DNA of 26,086 nucleotides, taken from positions 1 through 26,086 of the IMG/VR virus record IMGVR_UViG_3300020472_000147, one strand, 5' to 3'. Of the stretch, positions 1,241 to 26,086 are shown piece after piece; position 1 is the stretch's first letter; each line of letters starts with the position of its first letter. This stretch comes from a virus. Position numbers and translations under genes: made by a program. The notes beneath the pieces are model-generated. The model was not told the DNA's origin and did not search any database. It worked only from the letters and a program-made list of their open reading frames with translations.

Positions 1241-1431
1241 TGAGCTTTTGCTCAGAACTCCGGCATGAGGATTTGATGAGGCTCCGCAAGGTGCTTCGTC
1301 AGATGTTTAAGGTCCGTACCAAGCGTCATGAGGTATCTGATTGGGAGCTTGATAGGTGGATTGAATCCATTGGGCCTAAAGTACGCGAGAAAACTGTACA
1401 ACAGGCAGTAGATAGAGGTCTTGTGGAGTGA
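1240..1431 (+). CDS. small hypothetical protein upstream of TerL
   Basis: This encodes 63 helical, basic residues. The start ATG overlaps the preceding stop and the TGA overlaps the TerL GTG start, so all three genes are coupled. The sequence (MRLRKVLRQMFKVRTKRHEVSDWELDRWIESIGPKV) has a conserved-looking SDWELDRWI core and no membrane segment. I do not recognise a named family. Short proteins at this spot are common in podovirus packaging modules, and a terminase accessory role is possible but unproven. Confidence 0.7.
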   Translation: MSFCSELRHEDLMRLRKVLRQMFKVRTKRHEVSDWELDRWIESIGPKVREKTVQQAVDRGLVE

Positions 1432-2969
1432 GTTATGAATTTAATTATACGCCAGCAGGTGAAGTCCTTAAAACATTTCTTAAAGATGAAAGTTACTTCC
1501 GCGGTATACGTGGTCCTGTGGGAAGTGGTACCTCCTCTGCTTGCTGTGTCGAGATATTTCGTAGAGCGTCTGAACAAGTTGCAGGACAAGATGGAGTCAA
1601 GCGAACACGCTTCGCGATAATCCGTAATACCAATCCTCAGCTGAAGACAACCACGGTAAAGACTTGGCTTGAGTGGTTTCCTGAACATATCTTTGGTAAA
1701 TTCAACTGGTCTGTACCTTTTACCCACAATATCAAGATTGGTGCGATAGAATGTGAGGTAATTTTCCTGGCATTGGATCGCCCTGACGATGTAGACAAGC
1801 TGTTATCTCTTGATCTGACAGGGGTATGGATCAATGAGGCCAGAGAAATCAGCAAATCTGTGGTTGATGGGTGCACAATGAGGTGCGGCAGGTACCCTTC
1901 TATGAAGGATGGGGGGCCGACTTGGTATGGGGTAATCGCTGATACCAATGCGCCAACCGATGACCACTGGTGGCCCATTATGGCGGGAGAAAGCCCTATT
2001 CCAGACTATATTCCAAGGGAAGAAGCAGCCATGTTGCAGAAACCAAGCAACTGGACCTTCTTTACCCAGCCATCTGGTATGATTGAGAAGTTTGATAGCA
2101 CAGGAAAGACCATTCTAGGCTATGAAATGAACCCTGAATCAGAGAATACGGACAATTTAACCCCTGATTATTACAACAATATCATTAAAGGTAAGACGAA
2201 AAGCTGGATTGATGTCTATGTCATGAACCGATTGGGTTCAATTGATGAAGGAAGGCGGGTTTATCCTACATTTAATGACGATGTTCATGTTGCCCCAGAG
2301 AGTTTGATCCCAATTGAAAGCCTAGACATCTATGTGGGCATTGATTTTGGTCTAACACCCTCTGCAATCTTTGGTCAGCGCAGACCTGATGGCAGATGGA
2401 ATATCTTACGAGAACTTGTGACCACTGATATGGGCACGGTTCGCTTTGCGGAGACTTTAAAATATGAAATTAAAAGACATTTTCCGGGTTTTGGGCCTGA
2501 TCGCTTTAATTTCTACGGTGATCCTGCTGGGGATCAGCGCGCCCAAACGGACGAAACCACACCCTTTCAAATCCTACGATCTAACGGCATCGTGGCCCTG
2601 CCCACCAACACCAATGATCCTGTTGTACGGATAGAAGCCATCGAGGGGATGCTCAACCGTATGGTTGATGGACAGCCGGGGCTGTTATTAGACCCGAGTT
2701 GCAAGACATTGCGCCAAGGCTTCCGTTCTGGCTACCAGTATCGCCGTTTATCTGTCTCAGGTGATGCCAGATACGAGGATAAACCCAATAAAAATAAATA
2801 TTCACACCCTCATGATGCCCTTCAGTACATGGCAATTGGCGCGGGGGAAGGCAAAAACATTCTTCATGGCGGCAGATCATTCAAACAAGTCAACATTAAA
2901 CCGGAGTCAGGATTTTGGAATCGACAAAGAAATCAACGGAGGGGGTCAAGGGCTACATATGGTATGTAG
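1428..2969 (+). CDS. terL: terminase large subunit (TerL)
   Basis: This 513-residue protein is the packaging ATPase plus headful or terminus-cutting nuclease. It starts at GTG 1428, coupled by a four-base overlap. The ATPase half carries a Walker A-like loop GPVGSGTS (29-36), a Walker B-like VWINEA (133-138) with catalytic Glu137, and an ADTN motif III (171-174). The nuclease half shows the acidic motifs GIDFG (Asp306), YGDPAGDQR (Asp365) and HPHDALQ (Asp463), as expected for the RNase H-like fold. Two details are odd. The usual Walker A lysine is Thr35, and the usual Walker B aspartate is Asn136. Size and motif order are normal. It is confidently TerL; only the ATP-site chemistry is in question. 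Confidence 0.93.
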   Translation: MSYEFNYTPAGEVLKTFLKDESYFRGIRGPVGSGTSSACCVEIFRRASEQVAGQDGVKRTRFAIIRNTNPQLKTTTVKTWLEWFPEHIFGKFNWSVPFTHNIKIGAIECEVIFLALDRPDDVDKLLSLDLTGVWINEAREISKSVVDGCTMRCGRYPSMKDGGPTWYGVIADTNAPTDDHWWPIMAGESPIPDYIPREEAAMLQKPSNWTFFTQPSGMIEKFDSTGKTILGYEMNPESENTDNLTPDYYNNIIKGKTKSWIDVYVMNRLGSIDEGRRVYPTFNDDVHVAPESLIPIESLDIYVGIDFGLTPSAIFGQRRPDGRWNILRELVTTDMGTVRFAETLKYEIKRHFPGFGPDRFNFYGDPAGDQRAQTDETTPFQILRSNGIVALPTNTNDPVVRIEAIEGMLNRMVDGQPGLLLDPSCKTLRQGFRSGYQYRRLSVSGDARYEDKPNKNKYSHPHDALQYMAIGAGEGKNILHGGRSFKQVNIKPESGFWNRQRNQRRGSRATYGM

Positions 2970-8918: not shown

Positions 8919-11165
8919 ATGCCTTTAAGAGCAACAACTTTCCAAACCAACTTCTCATCTGGTCAACTTGATCCTCGTATGATGTCACGCGCTGATGTTG
9001 GTGTGTATAATAACTCAGGAGAAAATCTTCTTAACAACTCCCCTTTGGTTCAAGGAGGAGCTCGTCGTCGACCTGGCTCAGATTATGTTGCGACATTAAC
9101 TGGACATACACGCCTTGAAAAACTGCGCTTTAATGACACACAGCTGTATATCTTTGCGTTCTCAAATACTGAACTAAAGATATTTAATTCTGCTGGGAGC
9201 TTGTTGCAGACCCTGACATCCCAGCCGTGGAGCGCAACGACTATGTGGGAGATGCGTTTAACCTCAGCTGGCGATACAACGATTATTACTCATGAAGACT
9301 TCGCAATGCAGAAATTACTTCGTACAGGGGCAACGACGTTTACGATTGCCGCTTATGCATTTGAGTCTCATAGTTCTGGTTATCCCCGGTATCAGCCGTT
9401 TTATAAATTTGCTGACGATAGTACGACACTGACACCCAGTGCAACGTCAGGCAGTGGAGTTACTTTGACAGCTTCCGCTGCTTCTTTTGTCTCTGCTCAT
9501 GTTGGATCAATCATTCGATATAAAGGAAAAGAATGTGATGTCACAGGTTTTACCGATACCACCCATGTTACCGTTACGGTCCGGGAAACGCTGTCGGGAA
9601 CATCTGCCGATACCGATTGGGACGAAAATGTTTTTTCAGCGGCGAGAGGGTATGCTAAATCGTGTGCGTTCCACCCTCGTAGATTGTGGTTTGGTGGCTC
9701 CAGAGATTTGCCCTCCCATTTATTTTCGTCGCAGTCGAACGCCTTCTTCAACTTTAATGTTGGAACTGGGCTTGATGCAGAGAGCATCCAAGCACCGTTA
9801 GGATCAGATAGTGTTTCTGAAATACTTCACCTTCACTCTGGTCGACACCTCACTGTTTTCACAGATAGTGGTGTTTATTACGTTCAGGAGTCAAATACGA
9901 CTCCTGTAAGCCCTTCTAACTTCAATCCTCGCTTCTCGGTACCCTATGGTAGCGCACAAGCCCCTCCTAAGCGCTACGATGGCGCTACGCTCTTTATACA
10001 GGATACGGGGAAAGTCGTGCGAGAATTGCTGTGGAATGACCTTCAGCAATCTTATACCGCTGAACCGATCAGTTTGGTGTCAAATGACATGATTGATGAC
10101 GTACAGGATCAAGAGGTATTCTACGGAAATGATACAGGACCAGAGCAGTTTAATGTTATTGTAAACAACAATGGCAACATTTCTATTTATCATTCTGTTC
10201 GATCAGAGAAGATCGCGGCATGGTTTCCATGGGAAACAACTGGTGATTTTGAAAGTGTAACAGAATTAAATGGTGAAATCTTTGTTTCTGTTAAACGTGA
10301 TAATAAAAATGTACGAGAAAATGGAACAATCACGGTTACTGATTATGCAAATATTGCTGTTGGTACAACAATAACTATTACCATAGCAGATGGTACTGCA
10401 TATACCTTTACATCAGAAGCTTCTAGCGGGTCATCTCCATCAGAAAGTACAGGGTGGCGACCCTATTCAAACAACGATACAACCGCGGATAATATATATA
10501 CTACTATCAATAATCACAGTTTATTTACTGTGGCTAACCCTAGTGCTAATATTGTTACAATTACAGAAAGTAGCCCAACAGGTTTGCTGACAATTGAAAC
10601 ATCTGATTCTACACGATTGGCTGTATCAGCACAGACTTATCAACAGGTTTATTATTTAGAGAAATTTAATTTTCTTAAAACAGTAGATTGCTCCGCAACA
10701 TTAAGTAATGTCTCTGGCAATATATGGGGCGGCTTATCTCACCTTCTTAATTCAAGTGTCTCTTGTGTTGATAGTAATATTTATCATGGAGATTTTACCG
10801 TAGCATCTACGGGGCGTATTACCTTAAACGAAACTGGTACGGCTCCTGTTGCTGGTTTGAATTTTACTCGTAAGATTATTGATATGCCAGCTAACATTCA
10901 GGGGCCGAATGGTTCTTTGCGTGGATCGCAAAAGATGGTTGGTGAAATTATTGTTGAAGTTTACGACACCGCTAACTTTGCAGTAAATGGTCAGGAATTT
11001 CTTATTCGTCAGGTTGATGACGATCTTAGCACCAGCCCGTCAGCAGTAACAGGAACGTATCAGTTTTATGGTGGTGGTTGGTCGCGTGATGCCCAAGTGA
11101 CTATTACACAAACGGCTCCTCTCAAGGGAACAATCCTCAGTATTTGGAAGGAGATATTAGCATGA
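8919..11165 (+). CDS. tail tubular protein B (T7 gp12-like nozzle)
   Basis: This 748-residue protein makes the hexameric tail nozzle. Family features are the start TTFQTNFSSGQLDPRMMSRADVGVYNNSGENLLN, the RRRPGSDYVA motif, RLWFGGSRDLPSHLFSSQSNAFFNF, and VRELLWNDLQQSYTAEPISLVSNDMI. The central blades continue to about residue 462. At about 465-572 a Thr/Ile/Val-rich segment (GTITVTDYANIAVGTTITI...ATRLAV-like end) interrupts the expected blade before YYLEKFNF, and looks like an inserted beta-sandwich. Normal sequence resumes to the end. ATG 8919 follows GGAGG (8910-8914). It overlaps the next gene by four bases. Confidence 0.9.
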   Translation: MPLRATTFQTNFSSGQLDPRMMSRADVGVYNNSGENLLNNSPLVQGGARRRPGSDYVATLTGHTRLEKLRFNDTQLYIFAFSNTELKIFNSAGSLLQTLTSQPWSATTMWEMRLTSAGDTTIITHEDFAMQKLLRTGATTFTIAAYAFESHSSGYPRYQPFYKFADDSTTLTPSATSGSGVTLTASAASFVSAHVGSIIRYKGKECDVTGFTDTTHVTVTVRETLSGTSADTDWDENVFSAARGYAKSCAFHPRRLWFGGSRDLPSHLFSSQSNAFFNFNVGTGLDAESIQAPLGSDSVSEILHLHSGRHLTVFTDSGVYYVQESNTTPVSPSNFNPRFSVPYGSAQAPPKRYDGATLFIQDTGKVVRELLWNDLQQSYTAEPISLVSNDMIDDVQDQEVFYGNDTGPEQFNVIVNNNGNISIYHSVRSEKIAAWFPWETTGDFESVTELNGEIFVSVKRDNKNVRENGTITVTDYANIAVGTTITITIADGTAYTFTSEASSGSSPSESTGWRPYSNNDTTADNIYTTINNHSLFTVANPSANIVTITESSPTGLLTIETSDSTRLAVSAQTYQQVYYLEKFNFLKTVDCSATLSNVSGNIWGGLSHLLNSSVSCVDSNIYHGDFTVASTGRITLNETGTAPVAGLNFTRKIIDMPANIQGPNGSLRGSQKMVGEIIVEVYDTANFAVNGQEFLIRQVDDDLSTSPSAVTGTYQFYGGGWSRDAQVTITQTAPLKGTILSIWKEILA

Positions 11166-14536: not shown

Positions 14537-17500
14537 ATGGGATTTATAGAAGAATTAGATCGCATAAACGGACAAAATCGACAACAGGATAACCGTCCAG
14601 TTCATCAATTGGATACATCTGAGCGAATATGGAACGCTTTGCAAACTGATACCTTGGTTGGTCAGATTGGCACAAGTCTCAAATATCATATTGAAATGGG
14701 GGATTTTGGCGATTACCAGCCCGTTGAAGGTTATAATCCTTTTAATGATAATATGATTGGTTATGAAAATTATGCTGATGAGTTTATCACATCGATGAGC
14801 CCAGCAGAAACAATGGTACGAAAAGCAATCATTGATCGTAATAACGAAAGCCGAAGATCATTTGAAAATCATGGATGGTCACGTTTACTTGGCAATCTAA
14901 TGGACCCTATTAATATTTTACCGATACCTTTAGCCAGAGGCATTGGATTTATTCAAGGTGCCAAGCAAGGATCAAAGGTTGGTCTTTTAGGTCTTGGCCC
15001 AGCTGAGGCAATACGTGCAGGTATGGACCCTACTAATCCTACCTTAGAGCCGTATTTTGCAATTGCTGGTGCAGGGATTTTAGGCGGTGCGATTGGCGGT
15101 ATAGCAGGTGGTATCGGTAAAGTTAAATTAGATTTCATGGCTGATAACTGGTTTGCAAGTCAAAGTGCTGTTGATGCTTATAATCGATTAGAAGAGATTA
15201 TGCCTGATACTGCGGCAACGGTTCGTCCGTTTTCTGAAAGAAAAACATTTGTTAATAAGGATGGTTTAGAATATCAGGAGTCAATTTTTGACCACGTAAA
15301 ACGCTTGATTGATAAATCATCGCGGGAAAGCAATACTGAGTATGATGCACGAATACTTGAAATAACCAGTGATCCTAAAAAATATGAAGACTTAATAGAA
15401 GTTAGCAAAAGCTGGAATCCAGATTCTTTTGTTCCAACTGGAACAGGAATCGAAACAATGCGATTAGCACAGCATCCTTATTTTTTACTGAAAAATAATT
15501 TATTTAAAGGCGAAATGGGTAATTCAATTCGTAGATTGGCTGATCGAATTACTGGTTCTCCGGGCATGATAACAAAAGGTATGGCCGCTGGTGATTCTAT
15601 AGCTCAAGGTGTTCATAACAAATCAAAGTTACATAACAAATTAGCAGTAGATGCCAGTAAAGGGATGTATCATGCTTATTTAAAAGAACAAAATATTAAT
15701 CCAGATACTATGACACCATTTGGTCGGGCTCTTAAATCTGTTGAGACAAGTATTTTTCATGGCAGAGAATATAAACAATTTAAAGATGATGTTATGTGGA
15801 TGGTGTTGTCTGGTGAGAAAAGCACTAATGCCAATGTTATTGAGGCGGCTACTGCCCTTAAAACTTATATGGATGCAATGGGTAAAGCTGGTCAGGATGC
15901 AGGTATTTTTGGTATCGCACGTTTAAATCGGCGTAAGAAATTTTTACAGGAAGAGGTAATACCTAACTCAGACCGTTCTGTTTTAAATCAGGTAGATCGT
16001 CTTAGAGGTGCATTATCTGATGAAGAAAACCTTTTAGGAAGAGATTGGTTAGTCAGGGCTATTGATGATTTAGAAGGCAAGTCAAATTTGAGCCAAAAAC
16101 AATTTGATAATCTTGAAAAATTTAGGGAAGAACTCAAAGAAGTAGATTTTATTTTAATGGGAGACAACCGTAGTTTTTTGTTAGATCGAACTCGCGAGTC
16201 TTTTAAAAATAAGGGTGCTCAGATTTATCATGATAGGATTAAACGTCAGCAAGAATGGGTTGATGAATTAGCAGATATTGAAGCTCGTTTAGAAAATTGG
16301 AAAACAGCAAGTGCCCGTGGTGAATTACCTCAAGCTGAAAAACAGGCGTTCACTCACTGGTCACGTATGTTTAAGCATGATGAAATTGTTAATCATAGGG
16401 CAGAATTTTTAAAGATTTTAGAAGATTGGTATATCAAGACAGATACTACAGGTGTTCGTGCTAACCAAACGCTTGATAGTATTTTAAAACAACGTACCCA
16501 AGGTGACATTAAGCGATTGCTTGATGATGCTATGAGAAAAGAAGGTTTACCAGAATCTACTATCAATTCCGCGTTAGCAAAAATTGATGACATATTTAAA
16601 ACTAAATCAGTTGATCCAAAAATTAAACAATTACAATTAGAAGAAGCACATAATTATGTTCGTGGTCTAGTTGATACTTATGGTGTTGGCAAAGATGCCC
16701 GTCTTCAGGAAGCTTTAAAAGAAGTTGAGCGAATGGCATCACGGGGAGAGCCAGAAGATTTTGCGTTTGGTGCGGCTTCAGCTACCAGAGAACGTATCTT
16801 GGAAATGCCATCTTATATGCTGACCAAACGATATAATGGTATTGCTGATTTTATTGAAACTGATCCAGAAATTATGTTGCGTCGTTATCATCGCCGTATG
16901 GCGGCATCGATTGAGATGGGTAATGAATTTGGCGATGCTACGATGAAGAACTTTACAGATGAATTAAAGCTTCGTCTTGAATCTGAGGTAGATAATGCTG
17001 TTGGTAAAGAAGCAGAAGCGTTAGCGCGGGAGAGCTCACGGGTTATCCAAGCTGTTACTGACATGAAGGAAAAGGTCTTAGGTGTTTATAAGCTTCCAAC
17101 TGATCCTAGTTCAGCCAGTGCTCGCGGGGTTCGAAGTATAAAAAATGCTATGGTTTTAGCTTTAATGGGTAAAGCAACTGTTGCGGCGTTAGCTGATATG
17201 GGTCGAACAGTTATGTCTGTTGGATTGGAACGGGCATTTAAAGGGGCATTTGATAAATTTACTGTCGCATCTCATGATTTTAAGATGGGTGGCGCAGAAG
17301 TAGAGCTTGCTGGAGAAGCAGCTGAAGTTGCATTACATGGACGATGGGAAGCATTTTTTGATGTAGATGGTGGGTTTGGTGGAAACACAATGATCGAGCG
17401 TATGCTTGATACTGGTGTCAATAAGATGTTCGTTCTTAATGCTTTGTCGCCATATACCGATATGATGAAACGATTTTCTGGTTCAATCATTCAATCTGAA

Positions 17501-20370: not shown

Positions 20371-21021
20371 ATGAGTAAAAGTTCTTTTTTATCTGGAAAT
20401 TTTGCACCACTTGAGCGTTCTGTGACTTTGGCAAAAATGGCATCTGGAACTGATGGTAATTTAATTACATATGATGCTAGTGGAAATCCAGCCCATGTTG
20501 CAACAGGTAGTGCTGGTCAAGTCTTAACTAGTGCTGGTGCTGGTGCGCCACCAACTTTTGCTGGTGGCGGTAAACTTTTGCAAACAGTCACAACTGTAAA
20601 ACTTGATGCCTTTTCGGCTACTGCCACAAGCATGACAGATGTAACTGGACTATCTGTTCAAATTACTCCTAGTGCTACATCAAGTAAAATTTTAGTTACT
20701 GGTGCAATTACAGGGGCAGGAAGTCATTTCGTTTGGTTTAGAGTTTTACGTGACAGTACACAATTACAAATACCAGCTAGTCTAAGCAACAGAACTACAG
20801 GTTCTATTGTTTTTCAAAATAGTGAAACTTATATGGTAACTACACTTCCGATTTCCATACTAGATTCTCCATCTTCTACGAGTACGCTAACTTATAAAGT
20901 TCAGTGTGAGGTATATTCTGGTTCGGGATATGTAAATCGTACTGAGCGAGACGATGACAATGCCGCTGGATATGATGCACGGGGAAGCAGTTCAATTACA
21001 GTACAGGAGATAGGAGCATGA
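20371..21021 (+). CDS. tail-fibre tip protein, copy 2
   Basis: This encodes 216 residues. The ATG at 20371 follows a purine-rich AAAGGGGG stretch. The N-terminal module (SFLSGNFAP, VTLAKMASGTDGNLITYDASGNPAHVATGSAGQVLTSAGAGAPPTF) repeats that of the preceding fibre tip with many substitutions. The C-terminal part (LSVQITPSATSSKILVTGAITGAG, VWFRVLRDSTQLQIP, SSTSTLTYKVQCEVYSGSGYVN, ending SSSITVQEIGA) is of the beta type common at fibre ends and differs from copy 1. So the attachment module is duplicated while the heads diverge, which would let one virion carry two binding specificities. Its stop overlaps the next ATG (ATGA). Confidence 0.78.
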   Translation: MSKSSFLSGNFAPLERSVTLAKMASGTDGNLITYDASGNPAHVATGSAGQVLTSAGAGAPPTFAGGGKLLQTVTTVKLDAFSATATSMTDVTGLSVQITPSATSSKILVTGAITGAGSHFVWFRVLRDSTQLQIPASLSNRTTGSIVFQNSETYMVTTLPISILDSPSSTSTLTYKVQCEVYSGSGYVNRTERDDDNAAGYDARGSSSITVQEIGA

Positions 21022-21305
21022 CGCATCGCGCAATTTACGCACTATACGATAATGTCGTTAAAGTTAATGGTGACGGTGATGATATGGTTGCCTATGACAA
21101 AGATGACAAGGTAGTTGCTTGGGATAAGGACGATGTTTCGGCAAAAGAAATAGCGATTGAAAAAGAAATTGGTCATATCGAAAAAAGACGTAGCAATTAT
21201 CCATCCATAGGAGATCAATTAGATGCATTGTGGAAGGGTGGAGATGATCAAGCGGCAATGAAAGTCATTATAGACAAAGTTAAGTCTGACTATCCCAAAG
21301 GCTAA
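21018..21305 (+). CDS. 95-residue YPS-motif protein, copy 2
   Basis: This starts at ATG 21018, overlapping the previous stop, with GGAG just upstream. The N-terminal half has two acidic near-repeats (VAYDKDDK and VAWDKDDV). A charged helix (EIAIEKEIGHIEKRR) and the motif NYPSIGDQLDALWKG follow, ending IDKVKSDYPKG. The C-terminal half is paralogous to the 51-residue protein at 20213. It closes the second fibre cassette. A role as fibre component or assembly helper is inference. Confidence 0.75.
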   Translation: MTHRAIYALYDNVVKVNGDGDDMVAYDKDDKVVAWDKDDVSAKEIAIEKEIGHIEKRRSNYPSIGDQLDALWKGGDDQAAMKVIIDKVKSDYPKG

Positions 21306-21308
21306 GTA

Positions 21309-21815: not shown

Positions 21816-22166
21816 ATGGAATTTTCATTACGTGACCTGGCATCGTTTGGTGCAATAGCTGTATCGTTGATAGGTGGTTTTGTTACTGCACGTATCCAGA
21901 TTAAACAGTTGATGGAAAAAATGGCAGAACATAATAGTATTTTTACCCGCACAGATCAGCGTTTAGATGAAGCTGAATCAGCCAGAGGTGTTATTGAGAG
22001 TCGTGTTGCAATTCTTTCTGAGATTAACAGTGTGTCAGCGTTAGAAAAACGAACGATGCAGATAACAGATTTAACAACAACCGTTCGGATGTTGCAGTCA
22101 GAGGTTAGTCTTCTTCGATCCCTGCATAATGGATCACACCCTGTAACTACCAAGGAGGATAAATAG
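21816..22166 (+). CDS. N-anchored coiled-coil protein, possible spanin or holin-associated
   Basis: This encodes 116 residues. The ATG at 21816 follows the previous stop directly. Residues 8-25 (LASFGAIAVSLIGGFVTA) form one membrane helix. The rest (IKQLMEKMAEHNSIFTRTDQRLDEAESARGVIESRVAIL...VRMLQSEVSLL) is a long predicted coiled coil. One N-terminal anchor plus a coiled-coil body is the layout of inner-membrane spanins (Rz-type), but many other phage proteins share it. No lipoprotein partner is clear. The place right before the endolysin supports a lysis role. Confidence 0.65.
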   Translation: MEFSLRDLASFGAIAVSLIGGFVTARIQIKQLMEKMAEHNSIFTRTDQRLDEAESARGVIESRVAILSEINSVSALEKRTMQITDLTTTVRMLQSEVSLLRSLHNGSHPVTTKEDK

Positions 22167-22588
22167 TGGAGTATGAACATTTTTCACAAGCACCTTGGCA
22201 AGAAGATAGATGGCCTAATTTTAAAGCAGTTGAGTTGGCCTGTCCTCATTGTGGTGAGTATTATCATGATGAATGGATGCTCGACGGTATCCAATACTTG
22301 CGACGAAATCTTAATCAACCAGTCCAAATCAACAGTGCACGGCGTTGTGCCTTCTACAATGCCAGCAACAAAATCGGTGGAGCTGTCCACAGTCAGCATA
22401 AAATGCGTGTCGCCTTCGACATCTCAATCAGAAATCGTGATCCCGCCAAAATACTTGGGTTATTACGAGAGTATGGATATTCGACTTTTGGTTTCTACGG
22501 TTCTTTCATTCATGTAGATGCCAGAAAGAATAGGAAATGGTCAACTAAGTCAGGAAAAAAAGTATGGAAATCATTGGTAGCCTTTTAG
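22166..22588 (+). CDS. M15-family peptidase endolysin
   Basis: This encodes 140 residues. GTG 22166 overlaps the previous stop, and GGAGG lies about nine bases upstream. The zinc-peptidase motifs of the M15 (D-Ala-D-Ala carboxypeptidase-like) family are visible: SQH-x6-D, giving His78 and Asp85, and HVD, giving His116 and Asp118. The N-terminus carries a CPHCG (Cys26/Cys29) pair as in several phage M15 enzymes. It should cut peptide cross-links of peptidoglycan during lysis. One detail is unusual: Arg81 stands where the loop normally has Gly (H-x2-G-x-A-x-D). No signal peptide is seen, so it needs a holin. It overlaps the holin-like gene by 25 bases. Confidence 0.88.
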   Translation: MEYEHFSQAPWQEDRWPNFKAVELACPHCGEYYHDEWMLDGIQYLRRNLNQPVQINSARRCAFYNASNKIGGAVHSQHKMRVAFDISIRNRDPAKILGLLREYGYSTFGFYGSFIHVDARKNRKWSTKSGKKVWKSLVAF

Positions 22589-23106
22589 GAGCAGGTGCAA
22601 GTGTAGCATCTGGAGGATTATTTGGACTGTTGGGCAGTCTAGTAGGTGTAGGTACGAAGTACCTTCAACAGCGACAGGCCAACGCACAGAAAAGCAAGGA
22701 ATGGCTACATGAAATTGAATTACGCAAACTTAATATGGAAGCTGGTGATCGTGAGACTGAGAATGAACTGGCAATAGCACAGTCGGAGGGCTCATGGCGT
22801 GGACTAGAAGCCAGCTATAAGACAGTTATACCTGCATCTCAGGTACATACAGTGGTTAATGATTTGAGGGCATTGTTTAGACCCCTTCTCACCTTTAGCT
22901 TAATTGCCCTGTCAGCGGTACTCTTCTGGTGGGTATGGTCAGGTATACTAGAGGCGAATCCAAAGGTCTTAGCGGTCTTCTCTGAGTCTGATATTAAAGA
23001 TATCATACGGTATATGATCCATACGATCTTCTTTTCTACAAGCACAGCAATTGTCTGGTGGTTTGGTGACAGAGCTATGGCACCTCCGGGATCGAAGACT
23101 AGATAA
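22564..23106 (+). CDS. holin-like membrane protein
   Basis: This encodes 180 residues starting at ATG 22564, 25 bases inside the endolysin gene. A glycine-rich hydrophobic N-terminus (SLLGAGASVASGGLFGLLGSLVGVG, 6-30) precedes a charged helical linker. Two membrane helices follow: about 107-128 (PLLTFSLIALSAVLFWWVWSG) and 148-167 (IRYMIHTIFFSTSTAIVWWFGDR). The WWFGDR ending of the last helix resembles holin-type proteins I recall from podoviruses. Overlap with the endolysin supports a shared lysis role. The stop codon lies inside the 23-bp repeat found again at 23245-23267. Confidence 0.72.
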   Translation: MEIIGSLLGAGASVASGGLFGLLGSLVGVGTKYLQQRQANAQKSKEWLHEIELRKLNMEAGDRETENELAIAQSEGSWRGLEASYKTVIPASQVHTVVNDLRALFRPLLTFSLIALSAVLFWWVWSGILEANPKVLAVFSESDIKDIIRYMIHTIFFSTSTAIVWWFGDRAMAPPGSKTR

Positions 23107-23109
23107 GTT
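23087..23109 (+). repeat. 23-bp direct repeat, copy 1 (holin gene 3' end)
   Basis: It begins CGGGATCG and ends GATAAGTT, and includes the last codons and stop of the holin-like gene. An identical copy lies at 23245-23267, with 135 bases between them. Flanks do not match beyond the 23 bases. Confidence 0.95.
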
Positions 23110-23197: not shown

Positions 23198-23244
23198 AAT
23201 TACAATTCCATTAGAATATAGTATCGCTTCAATTGCATCACATT

Positions 23245-23267
23245 CGGGATCGAAGACTAGATAAGTT
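23245..23267 (+). repeat. 23-bp direct repeat, copy 2
   Basis: It is identical to 23087-23109. This copy covers the stop codon (23257-23259, minus strand) of the leftward gene. Having both convergent genes end in the same repeat suggests that a duplication or insertion event built the gap between them. Confidence 0.95.
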
Positions 23268-23559
23268 TTAGTTGTTTAGGTTCTTCACCTAGAATATTTA
23301 GTATAAAGGTTTTCATCTCAGGCTCTTGCGGATAATCATTATCATATGATTTTATATACCAATCATGATAGAAGCCAGTATCTGTTAATGGTATACATAT
23401 ATCTGGCCACATACTTATAGAGTGAAAACCTTTTCCACCCCAACTGAATCCCGTATGCCAATCGTATCTAACTTCAATATCAATTGTGGCTTCTCCCCAT
23501 CTTAATCGAAAATTCATTTCTGGAAGTTTGGTATATTTCTCCATCCAATTACCATTCAT
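23257..23559 (-). CDS. 100-residue hypothetical protein near attP
   Basis: This leftward gene has a good ribosome binding site (AAGGAGA before the ATG at 23559). The peptide is aromatic-rich (RLRWGEATIDIEVRYDWHTGFSWGGKGFHSISMWPD) with beta-like spacing, then FYHDWYIKSYDNDYPQEPEMKTFILNIL. It has no signal peptide or membrane segment and I do not recognise a family. It follows a 57-residue gene with two bases after that stop, so the two look like a small operon. The position next to attP and antisense to the late genes is typical for accessory genes carried at prophage ends. Confidence 0.7.
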   Translation of the reverse strand: MNGNWMEKYTKLPEMNFRLRWGEATIDIEVRYDWHTGFSWGGKGFHSISMWPDICIPLTDTGFYHDWYIKSYDNDYPQEPEMKTFILNILGEEPKQLKLI

Positions 23560-23756: not shown

Positions 23757-23779
23757 CTGTGCCCAAAACTGTGCCCAGT
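23757..23779. repeat. integrase arm-type site, left (two CTGTGCCCA)
   Basis: This 23-bp element consists of CTGTGCCCA, three A, and CTGTGCCCA followed by GT. An identical copy lies at 23978-24000 on the other side of the tRNA core. Paired repeats on both sides of a core match arm-binding sites of tyrosine integrases. The site also overlaps the promoter region of the leftward genes. Confidence 0.8.
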
Positions 23780-23792
23780 AGTTTGTTATAAT

Positions 23793-23819
23793 ATGAGCGA
23801 TATGAGCGATATGAGCGAT
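23793..23819. repeat. three tandem 9-bp repeats in attP
   Basis: ATGAGCGAT occurs three times without a gap. It lies between the left arm site and the core. Direct repeats here could be sites for the excisionase-like protein encoded at 25149. The repeat also reads Met-Ser-Asp three times, but no gene follows. Confidence 0.75.
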
Positions 23820-23840
23820 TCAAATCAGGGGATCAGACAC

Positions 23841-23865
23841 AAAAAAACCCCAGTAAACTGGGGGT
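23841..23865 (-). terminator. terminator following the tRNA 3' half (minus strand)
   Basis: On the minus strand, a CCCCAGT/ACTGGGG hairpin (23848-23863) is followed by seven T (23841-23847). It lies five bases from the encoded CCA end of the tRNA fragment. It looks like the natural tRNA terminator carried by the phage together with the 3' half. It could also end transcription from the integrase side. Confidence 0.85.
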
Positions 23866-23869
23866 TAAG

Positions 23870-23914
23870 TGGTGCCCGGGGGCGGATTTGAACCACCGAC
23901 ACGCGGATTTTCAG
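23870..23914 (-). other. attP: attP core: 3' half of tRNA-Phe (GAA)
   Basis: Read on the minus strand, it covers the anticodon loop (CTGAAAA), the 3' anticodon stem TCCGC, variable loop GTGTC, T-arm GGTGG-TTCAAAT-CCGCC, acceptor CCCGGGC, A and CCA. The 5' part of a tRNA is missing: the bases before the loop (CGTA) do not pair with TCCGC. This is the standard way for a phage to carry the target's 3' end so that the tRNA is restored upon integration. The crossover should lie at the anticodon loop side. It resembles alphaproteobacterial tRNA-Phe from memory. Confidence 0.9.
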
Positions 23915-23977
23915 TACGTTTATCCATGATTAAAAACCCTATATAAACTGCGGGATACAGAGTATTATATTTAGTTA

Positions 23978-24000
23978 CTGTGCCCAAAACTGTGCCCAGT
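23978..24000. repeat. integrase arm-type site, right (two CTGTGCCCA)
   Basis: It is identical over 23 bases to 23757-23779. It lies 64 bases from the core on the integrase side. Presence on both sides indicates an intact attP. Confidence 0.8.
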
Positions 24001-24017: not shown

Positions 24018-24221
24018 TTAACCACCATTAAGTGAGCATACATTAAATTGCAGAATCAGATCACGTTTATTTAACTTAATGTAACACTTTCTAATATCTC
24101 TTTCGTTTGTTGGATATTTGTTTTCAATACAATAATCAACGGCTTGTTTTTTAGTAGCAAAGTATTCAGTTCTTTCCTCCCCAACAAAATCATTCGGAGT
24201 TATTAATCTGTAGAATATCAT
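24018..24221 (-). CDS. 67-residue hypothetical protein downstream of integrase
   Basis: It starts at ATG 24221, one base after the integrase stop, and is probably cotranscribed. The sequence MIFYRLITPNDFVGEERTEYFATKKQAVDYCIENKYP, then IRKCYIKLNKRDLILQFN, alternates strands and helices like a small alpha-beta domain. I do not recognise the family. Its position between int and attP suggests a minor regulatory or accessory role. Confidence 0.6.
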   Translation of the reverse strand: MIFYRLITPNDFVGEERTEYFATKKQAVDYCIENKYPTNERDIRKCYIKLNKRDLILQFNVCSLNGG

Positions 24222-24222
24222 T

Positions 24223-25269
24223 TTATTTTCCAGTTTTTAAAAGTTTATCATGCACCTTATCTTCTTCAAGAAAGGCGTAGCGTTCTTGGGTTACTCTAAC
24301 TGATGAGTGACCCAGTAATAACGATACTTCTTGCATCGTCAGTTTCCTGTCGTTTAACATTCGGCATCCATAAGTGCGCCTAACATCGTGCCATGTAATA
24401 CGTTGTATCTTCGCACGTTCTACTGCTCCATCCATACCTCGCTTACGATCTTTGAATCTGTTACCTGTACTTGGATTAAAGAAAACATAGGGTGATGTGA
24501 TATGACGCACTTGTCGGGCTCGTTCTAATACTTCCTTGGCTTCAGGTAAGAGAGGTACCTTCCGTTGTTTATCACCTTTGCCTGTAATAATTAAACGACT
24601 GTTATAAAGATCAACGTGGTTTGGTTTCTTATTATCATAAGGGTCATGGGTTAATGCCCATAATTCATCTGCACGTAGTCCAGTATAAAGGCAAAGTATT
24701 AATGCATCCCTGAATGTACCATGAGTAGCCTCGATGAGGAGCTCCTGTTCGTGATGATTAAGGTATCGTGTACGAGGTGGTGATTCTTTAAGCTTGCCTT
24801 TATTCTGCTGTTGTTTTTTCCATACGAGAACAGGGTTATTAATATCCCACTCAAGATTTATTTGTGCAAATCCATACATACTAGAGAGACAAGCCAGGTC
24901 ACGATTGATGGTGGGTTCTTTACACTCAAGGATACGTGCTGAATAGTATGCCCATAGATCAGCACCTGATATCTCATCTAATTTTTTTCCTTTGAAATAT
25001 GGGGTTAGCATACGAAGAGAAGTTACATACCGTCGTTGTTCTTTTAGTGTGGGTATGTATTCAGTAATAAATAATTCAGCTAACTGATCGTATGTATAGT
25101 TACATCCTGTTTGATAACTACCATTATCAAGATCATATATCCATTGGGCTAGGCGTTTGTTGGCTTCAACTTTAGAAGTTGTTCTAAGCGAGACTCGGAT
25201 TTCTTTGCCATTTCTGTAGGCACGACCCCACCAGTTTTTAGATAGTTTGTGTTTGTAGACACTCGCCAC
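24223..25269 (-). CDS. int: tyrosine recombinase integrase
   Basis: This encodes 348 residues. GTG at 25269 is chosen because AGGAG lies about eight bases before it; the upstream GTG at 25296 has no such support. Catalytic residues of the family are all present: Arg199 (YTGLRADEL), Lys231 (TGKGDKQRKVP), His294 and Arg297 (WHDVRRTYG), His321 (LGHSS) and Tyr331 (TQERYAF). The N-terminal region (YKHKLSKNWWGRAYRNGKEIRVSLRTTSK) fits an arm-binding domain, then a core-binding SAM-like domain. It should recombine attP with the host tRNA-Phe gene. The neighbouring attP, arm repeats and excisionase-like gene support this. Confidence 0.95.
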   Translation of the reverse strand: MASVYKHKLSKNWWGRAYRNGKEIRVSLRTTSKVEANKRLAQWIYDLDNGSYQTGCNYTYDQLAELFITEYIPTLKEQRRYVTSLRMLTPYFKGKKLDEISGADLWAYYSARILECKEPTINRDLACLSSMYGFAQINLEWDINNPVLVWKKQQQNKGKLKESPPRTRYLNHHEQELLIEATHGTFRDALILCLYTGLRADELWALTHDPYDNKKPNHVDLYNSRLIITGKGDKQRKVPLLPEAKEVLERARQVRHITSPYVFFNPSTGNRFKDRKRGMDGAVERAKIQRITWHDVRRTYGCRMLNDRKLTMQEVSLLLGHSSVRVTQERYAFLEEDKVHDKLLKTGK

Positions 25270-25436
25270 TGTTCTCTCCTCTGCATTTTCCACCACCTGT
25301 TTATTTCACGCTTGTCAAATCTCCAAGCTGATCCGGGGCGTAATTGAAATGCTGGTATGTTTCCAGCTTGTGCCATCCTACGAATAGTTGCATCTGAATA
25401 GCCAGTTAATTCTTTTACATAAGTTATATTAACCAT
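25149..25436 (-). CDS. excisionase-like HTH protein overlapping int
   Basis: This encodes 95 residues. The first 50 form a MerR/AlpA-type winged helix: YVKELTGYSDATIRRMAQAGNIPAFQL, RPGSAWRFDKREINRWW. The rest (about 45 residues) is polar and lies in the region shared with the integrase. It overlaps int by 121 bases and the upstream gene by eight bases. Such small proteins usually direct excision or activate integrase. No good ribosome binding site precedes the ATG at 25436, so coupling with the upstream gene is likely. Confidence 0.8.
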   Translation of the reverse strand: MVNITYVKELTGYSDATIRRMAQAGNIPAFQLRPGSAWRFDKREINRWWKMQRREQWRVSTNTNYLKTGGVVPTEMAKKSESRLEQLLKLKPTNA

Positions 25437-25714: not shown

Positions 25715-26086
25715 TTAAAAGATTATGCCAGTAAAGGCAGGTGGGTTGTTGGTATGTAGACGCAAGCAATCCTTGCACCTGAAGTTTGTATTAGAGACAG
25801 GCTGAAATTCACAGCGACACGCCATACATTTGCGTGGCTTGGTTGGTTTCTGTGGATCGATATCAGATTGAGGACGTTGGTATGACATGGTGTCATTCGG
25901 TAAACGTCTGCGCTTTCTTTTATAAGCGTTATCGTATTGTTGTTTAATACGTTTGATATCTACTGGTTTGTCAGATTCGTATTGGCTTTCAAAAGCTTGG
26001 CGTCTGCTTGCTTCATTCTTGTACCATTCAGGGAGCACATCGTATCGCAATTCAATACCATTGCAGTACGCAAAGAAAGCTCGTTG
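25715..26086 (-). CDS. zinc-ribbon protein, partial (runs off the window)
   Basis: The frame is open from the right edge to a stop at 25715-25717, giving at least 123 residues. Although a TTG exists at 26050, upstream codons (RAFFAYCNGIE) continue naturally, so the true start lies beyond the window. A basic middle (DIKRIKQQYDNAYKRKRRR) is followed by a CxxC-x12-CxxC zinc ribbon: KCMACRCEF and FRCKDCLRL. That suggests nucleic-acid binding. The operon position before xis and int suggests a regulator or early protein. Confidence 0.65.
   Translation of the reverse strand, partial: QRAFFAYCNGIELRYDVLPEWYKNEASRRQAFESQYESDKPVDIKRIKQQYDNAYKRKRRRLPNDTMSYQRPQSDIDPQKPTKPRKCMACRCEFQPVSNTNFRCKDCLRLHTNNPPAFTGIIF

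Follow-up and report, generated by a model that had tools for sequence, protein, structure and literature searches.

An attP-like site between lysis genes and integrase

Half of a tRNA gene that lies between lysis genes and an integrase gene in viral DNA raises two questions: is it an intact phage attachment site (attP), and does the DNA stem from unintegrated phage or from the end of a prophage? The window, i.e., the whole stretch of DNA that was analyzed, comprises 26,086 bases and is the entire virus record; it is linear and probably a fragment. Two relatives are referred to throughout: NZHS01000019.1, a near-identical phage contig filed in the MAG MED638 (the MED638 contig), and a distant sister genome, G113. 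The predicted features of the window are as follows.

1428..2969, plus strand: terminase large subunit, the clade-defining gene (profile and relative comparisons)
22166..22588, plus strand: M15 peptidase endolysin (PF08291, PHROG 894)
22564..23106, plus strand: holin-like membrane protein from the final late gene ahead of attP (PHROG 6637, unknown function)
23257..23559, minus strand: 100-aa ORF between holin gene and attP (no family match; absent from the MED638 contig)
23757..23779, minus strand: attP arm repeat, lysis side (exact 23-bp copy, two GGGCACA motifs)
23848..23863, minus strand: terminator-like stem-loop directly after the tRNA CCA (from sequence; similar place in G113)
23870..23915, minus strand: attP core, the 46-nt 3' half of tRNA-Phe(GAA), which starts with the last base of the anticodon 5' stem and ends with CCA
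23908..23914, minus strand: anticodon loop CTGAAAA, probable 7-bp crossover (overlap) region (from the G113 comparison)
23978..24000, minus strand: attP arm repeat, integrase side (exact 23-bp copy)
24018..24221, minus strand: 67-aa ORF flanked by integrase gene and arm (without family match; missing in the MED638 contig)
24223..25296, minus strand: tyrosine integrase, 357 aa (PF00589, E=2e-14)
25149..25436, minus strand: HTH_17/excisionase-family protein, 95 aa (PF12728, PHROG 66, TIGR01764 above cutoff)

Read along the minus strand, a 90-aa ORF is followed by the Xis-like HTH gene, the integrase, the 67-aa ORF, arm A (24000-23978), the tRNA-Phe 3' half, the stem-loop (23863-23848), arm B (23779-23757), and the late genes (M15 endolysin, holin-like). 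The integrase is full length, and its candidate catalytic residues R208, H303, R306, H330, and Y340 are invariant in an alignment with the G113 integrase. The 95-aa HTH gene overlaps the integrase start, and its family matches suggest that it probably encodes Xis. Within the window, no gene was identified as a repressor; G104, a relative that has no integrase, carries an HTH_3 gene in its early region. A holin role for the 22564..23106 protein would fit with G113, where a GTA_holin_3TM gene adjoins attP. The end of this holin-like gene (23081-23109) recurs in the intergenic region at 23239-23267 as a 29-nt direct repeat (93%), which suggests a recent local duplication or an insertion scar.

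The sequence-only reading had described identical 23-bp repeats flanking the core. Both copies of CTGTGCCCAAAACTGTGCCCAGT are exact (23757-23779 and 23978-24000); the extended copy measures 37 nt at 89% identity. With up to 3 mismatches allowed, no further match was found elsewhere in the window, nor was any seen in 100 shuffles. From base composition, approximately 1e-5 such repeat pairs are expected by chance. Each arm consists of two 8-mers, TGTGCCCA, 12 bp apart, with GGGCACA read on the integrase strand. This 8-mer has only four copies in the window, all inside the arms.

The core between the arms, ACTGAAAATCCGCGTGTCGGTGGTTCAAATCCGCCCCCGGGCACCA (0 expected in shuffles), was located correctly in the sequence-only reading, although at 23870-23914 it was drawn one base too short. 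All 46 nt recur unchanged as the 3' part of a tRNA-Phe(GAA) gene in the viral contig L045, where this gene is complete and adjoins a different phage. In agreement with the earlier claim that only the 3' half is present, ARAGORN detected no complete tRNA in the window. An Rfam search returned no RNA at the site; its best match was elsewhere and at chance level. When the 5' half from another host's tRNA-Phe was joined to the phage 3' half, the product folded as a complete tRNA-Phe. Thus, the sequence features of a lambda-type attP are found here: a full-length R-H-R-H-Y integrase, a tRNA 3' half as core, and arms on both sides.

The module is conserved in two relatives and rare in the clade

The MED638 contig (32,492 bp) is approximately 98% identical to the window over the shared parts and carries the same attP. 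The arms, core, and terminator show 0 base differences; neighboring bases differ. Besides the missing 67-aa and 100-aa ORFs, this contig carries another ORF, of 146 aa, beside the Xis gene.

G113 (33,130 bp) is 62% identical in the terminase and 38% in the integrase. Its gene order matches that of the window, with the Xis-like HTH gene and the integrase on one side of attP and a 3TM holin on the other. Its attP occupies the corresponding place in the genome, but the core is the 3' half of tRNA-Met(CAT), and a stem-loop can be read from the sequence after the CCA of this half. Its own paired arms are CGGCACAATTCTGGTCACAGG (GGCACA-n5-GGTCACA). Relative to the integrase and arms, the cores of G113 and the window are in opposite orientations; once integrated, the two prophages would therefore be oriented oppositely with respect to their tRNAs. 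G113 also has a degenerate third copy of the arm at 14973-14993 (L035:14441-15300).

Comparison of the two cores points to the probable crossover. In the window, the half-sites CGTA and TCCGC flank the anticodon loop CTGAAAA, and the corresponding stretch of G113 reads CGTA-ATCATAA-TCCGC. Since both cores begin with CGTA, followed by seven loop bases and TCCGC, the anticodon stem is probably what the integrase recognizes, with crossover in the loop.

The module is missing from the relative G104. The ends of this genome (34,845 bp, terminase 92%) overlap by 199 nt at 99.5% identity, and those of a further relative, G110, by 333 nt at 96.7%; both thus appear to be complete circular maps. In G104, the distance from the holin gene to the homologue of the ORF at 25715 is approximately 0.6 kb vs. 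2.6 kb in the window, and neither an integrase nor a tRNA half is found between the holin and early genes. A PF00589 integrase was found in 0 of 31 further terminase relatives (records of 12-35 kb), indicating that the integrase is a rare module in this clade, although fragments may hide a few.

The contig probably stems from unintegrated phage DNA

The sequence-only reading had proposed that an intact attP marks the contig as a circular or replicating phage form and not as an integrated prophage. The attP is indeed intact: arms, core, and integrase are in place, and the layout is the same in NZHS01000019.1 and, with another tRNA, in G113. As had also been stated, phage-type genes lie on both sides, the M15 endopeptidase and holin-like genes on the left and the integrase and excisionase-like genes on the right. 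The circular map of G104 gives this arrangement its context. There, the lysis genes are succeeded by the early genes, which in turn run on to the terminase, and the attP of the window lies exactly between lysis and early genes. Since the G104 circle runs through this place without the whole module, the site is flanked by phage genes on both sides, and an integrated copy would be cut at attP. Host genes left of 23757 in relatives and a complete tRNA-Phe at the site, which the sequence-only reading had named as signs against it, were looked for and neither was found.

Could the tRNA half nevertheless be a passenger or decoy RNA without a role in integration? With arms on both sides, an adjoining integrase, and the same layout around a different tRNA in G113, and with nothing found in its favor, we give this practically no credence. 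It is also very improbable that the window represents one end of a prophage, whether a single integrated copy or a tandem array. Tandem prophages would likewise have an attP between phage genes, but the phage genes on both sides come without host genes or a complete tRNA, and the relatives are circularly permuted complete genomes. We therefore consider it highly probable that a marine podovirus has here a lambda-style attP, with integrase, core, and arms as modeled below, and that the contig derives from unintegrated phage DNA. The proposal of a circular or replicating form was too narrow in one respect, in that it left out packaged linear virion DNA. Such DNA contains attP as well, and viral contigs commonly stem from it. 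Packaged virion DNA, circular DNA, and replicating DNA fit the data equally well.

Proposed integration and lifestyle

The repeats, the core, the terminator-like site, the integrase and Xis families, and their conservation in relatives can be read from the DNA itself; from them we infer binding, crossover point, integration, excision, and host group. The integrase would contact the two paired arm repeats through its N-terminal domain and the core through its catalytic domain. Strand exchange would take place at the anticodon loop of the host tRNA-Phe(GAA) gene. After integration, the host 5' half and the phage 3' half would together form a working tRNA-Phe again, with the phage's own stem-loop (23848-23863) as its terminator. 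The lysis genes would come to adjoin the rebuilt tRNA; at the opposite prophage end, the integrase would neighbor the 3' half displaced from the host gene. The HTH protein whose gene overlaps that of the integrase would probably serve as the excisionase.

An integrase with an attP indicates a capacity to integrate, and "temperate", as the phage had been called, can only be presumed from this capacity. T7-like cyanophages with an integrase and attP integrate without forming stable lysogens (PMC8776855). A similar behavior here, with functional integration but no true lysogeny, so that an essentially lytic phage would insert only transiently, is plausible, if rather unlikely. The cyanophage precedent speaks for it, as do the rarity of the integrase in the clade and the absence of the module from the close relative G104; an excisionase-family or HTH gene beside the integrase in both integrase-bearing lineages and small HTH genes in the early regions of relatives argue against it. 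We regard it as improbable that attP and integrase are disused remnants. Small ORFs were gained or lost around the site between 98%-identical phages, as might be expected of a relic, but the arms, core, and terminator remained unchanged between the window and the MED638 contig despite differing neighbor bases, and the integrase has kept its full length and catalytic residues. An otherwise integrase-poor marine podovirus clade can carry a complete integration module, and some of its members may thus enter host chromosomes.

An alphaproteobacterial host is likely

Compared by eye, the core is 2 bases off the tRNA-Phe of Neorhizobium, 3 off that of Paracoccus, and approximately 9 off E. coli pheV. 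Rhodovulum phage RS1 matches it at 95.7% over 47 nt, and plasmid and phage collections yielded near matches only (Neorhizobium, Paracoccus, and Rhodovulum phage RS1). Together with the match to L045, these similarities suggest that the host is likely an alphaproteobacterium.

A search of genome contigs with the integrase had a sole match, the phage contig filed in the Flavobacteriales MAG MED638. The tRNA half was absent from 98 other genomes of the MAG's phylum (up to 2 mismatches) and from 51 genomes of its family (up to 3 mismatches). In the genomes and collections covered, neither an attL nor an attR or attB of this phage turned up. A Flavobacteriales host, as the MAG label would imply, was thus ruled out, as the sampled relatives of the MAG do not have the tRNA half. 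MED638 contains at least two phage-like contigs (G001:C22 and C66); besides the near-identical relative of the window, it has one with a T7-type RNA polymerase and an integrase. The missing tRNA half in MAG relatives and this second phage-like contig indicate that the label almost certainly results from wrong binning.

In the 32.6-kb viral contig IMGVR_UViG_3300030222_000033, this tRNA-Phe 3' half is present twice (L043, L044), preceded each time by a different sequence. The two copies are possibly two attachment sites or stacked elements.

A T7-like virion outside the T7 relatives

The phage had been described as temperate with a T7-like virion, a combination less common than strictly lytic T7 relatives. 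The virion part of this description holds, since portal (head-tail connector, PF12236), tail tubular, and large internal virion proteins match T7-like families (PHROG 332, 394, 376, and 342); kinship with T7 does not. A T7-type single-subunit RNA polymerase is absent from the complete circular genomes of G113 and Pelagibacter phage EXVC031P Hodr (OQ414635), with a positive T7 control; the window does not include the early region. The T7-type family-A polymerase domain DNA_pol_A is also absent from complete relatives, and control genomes were positive. As complete relatives have neither enzyme, we do not count the phage among the T7 relatives. G104 encodes a YqaJ-type recombinase.

Among cultured phages, Hodr and Methylophilales phage MEP301 are the closest. 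Hodr comes nearest in its virion genes (TerL 59%, portal 46%, capsid 44%) but has no PF00589 integrase. In MEP301, TerL (42%) and portal (37%) are related, and its paper likewise reports neither an RNA nor a DNA polymerase of T7 type; no tyrosine integrase was found in it, and only a resolvase-domain protein is reported (PMC8024684).

Integrase-carrying marine podoviruses are already known (PMC8776855, PMC6918029). The cyanophages P-SSP7 and S-TIP37 have an integrase and an attP in a tRNA (PMC8776855) but differ in that the tRNA is tRNA-Leu and the phages are of T7 type, whereas the clade of the window has no T7-type RNA polymerase or DNA_pol_A. Two further cases were compared by description. 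CRP-3, a marine alphaproteobacterial podovirus of Roseobacter RCA (HMO-2011 type), integrates into tRNA-Met(CAT), the target type of G113, but HMO-2011-type phages differ by an unusual DNA polymerase (PMC6918029). The marine alphaproteobacterial Citromicrobium prophages phiD1, phiD3, and phiE have an attP that targets tRNA-Phe-GAA (PMC12486242). This kind of site is thus known; the additions here are a module that is rare in its clade, a sister with a swapped and inverted core, and an arm motif that is widely spread.

The arm motif recurs beside diverse integrases

Scanning viral contigs with TGGGCACANNTTTGGGCACA yielded 10 contigs, 9 of them with a PF00589 integrase. A looser motif, TGGGCACA-n3/4-TGGGCACA, was found in 103 stretches vs. 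22 for the reversed motif used as control (counts include a few near-duplicate contigs). An integrase was located within 1 kb of 38 of the 103 motif stretches vs. 0 of 22 controls (Fisher p=2e-4). A second direct copy 60-500 bp away was detected in 27 of 103 vs. 1 of 22 (p=0.026), and a tRNA 3' half lay between the paired arms in 11 of these 27.

The doubled GGGYACA recurs beside diverse integrases (L131-L140, L151-L243, L266) and in mycobacteriophage Boilgate. The Boilgate paper showed integration at tRNA-Lys by PCR and mentions putative arm sites (PMC10865867). As in the window, a tRNA 3' half core lies between paired direct arm repeats. The Boilgate arms, TTGGGTACAGTTTTGGGTACAGT, differ from those of the window, CTGGGCACAGTTTTGGGCACAGT, mainly by the change from GGGCACA to GGGTACA. 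Boilgate differs further in its actinobacterial host, its target, a core that is reversed relative to the arms, and a barely alignable integrase that shares only a short catalytic segment with ours.

We tentatively propose, as a possibility just short of an even chance, that the doubled GGGYACA serves as the arm-type site for a very broad group of tyrosine integrases that target tRNAs, kept despite nearly unalignable integrases and swapped or inverted cores. The same near-even caution applies to the span of this group, which might reach from marine alphaproteobacterial podoviruses to mycobacteriophages. The shared motif could be either ancestral or convergent. No report of the motif letters was found in the text of the literature searched; this is not evidence that the motif is unreported. 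If the proposal is true, the doubled GGGYACA could locate attP sites and tRNA targets directly in viral DNA and, once confirmed, would be a simple signature in the DNA by which attP sites can be recognized and the host tRNA targets of metagenomic phages predicted.

Other differences between the near-identical phages

Outside the module, the block that follows the tail-fiber-like genes differs in both content and length between the 98%-identical phages (window 20378-21307, 0.9 kb, vs. L002:4400-6946, 2.5 kb). Within the tail protein gene, a shorter stretch (10295-10647) is also unalignable between them. The early region of the MED638 contig (L039:13104-13997) encodes an ArdC-type anti-restriction/zincin-like protein (PF08401 and PF18818).
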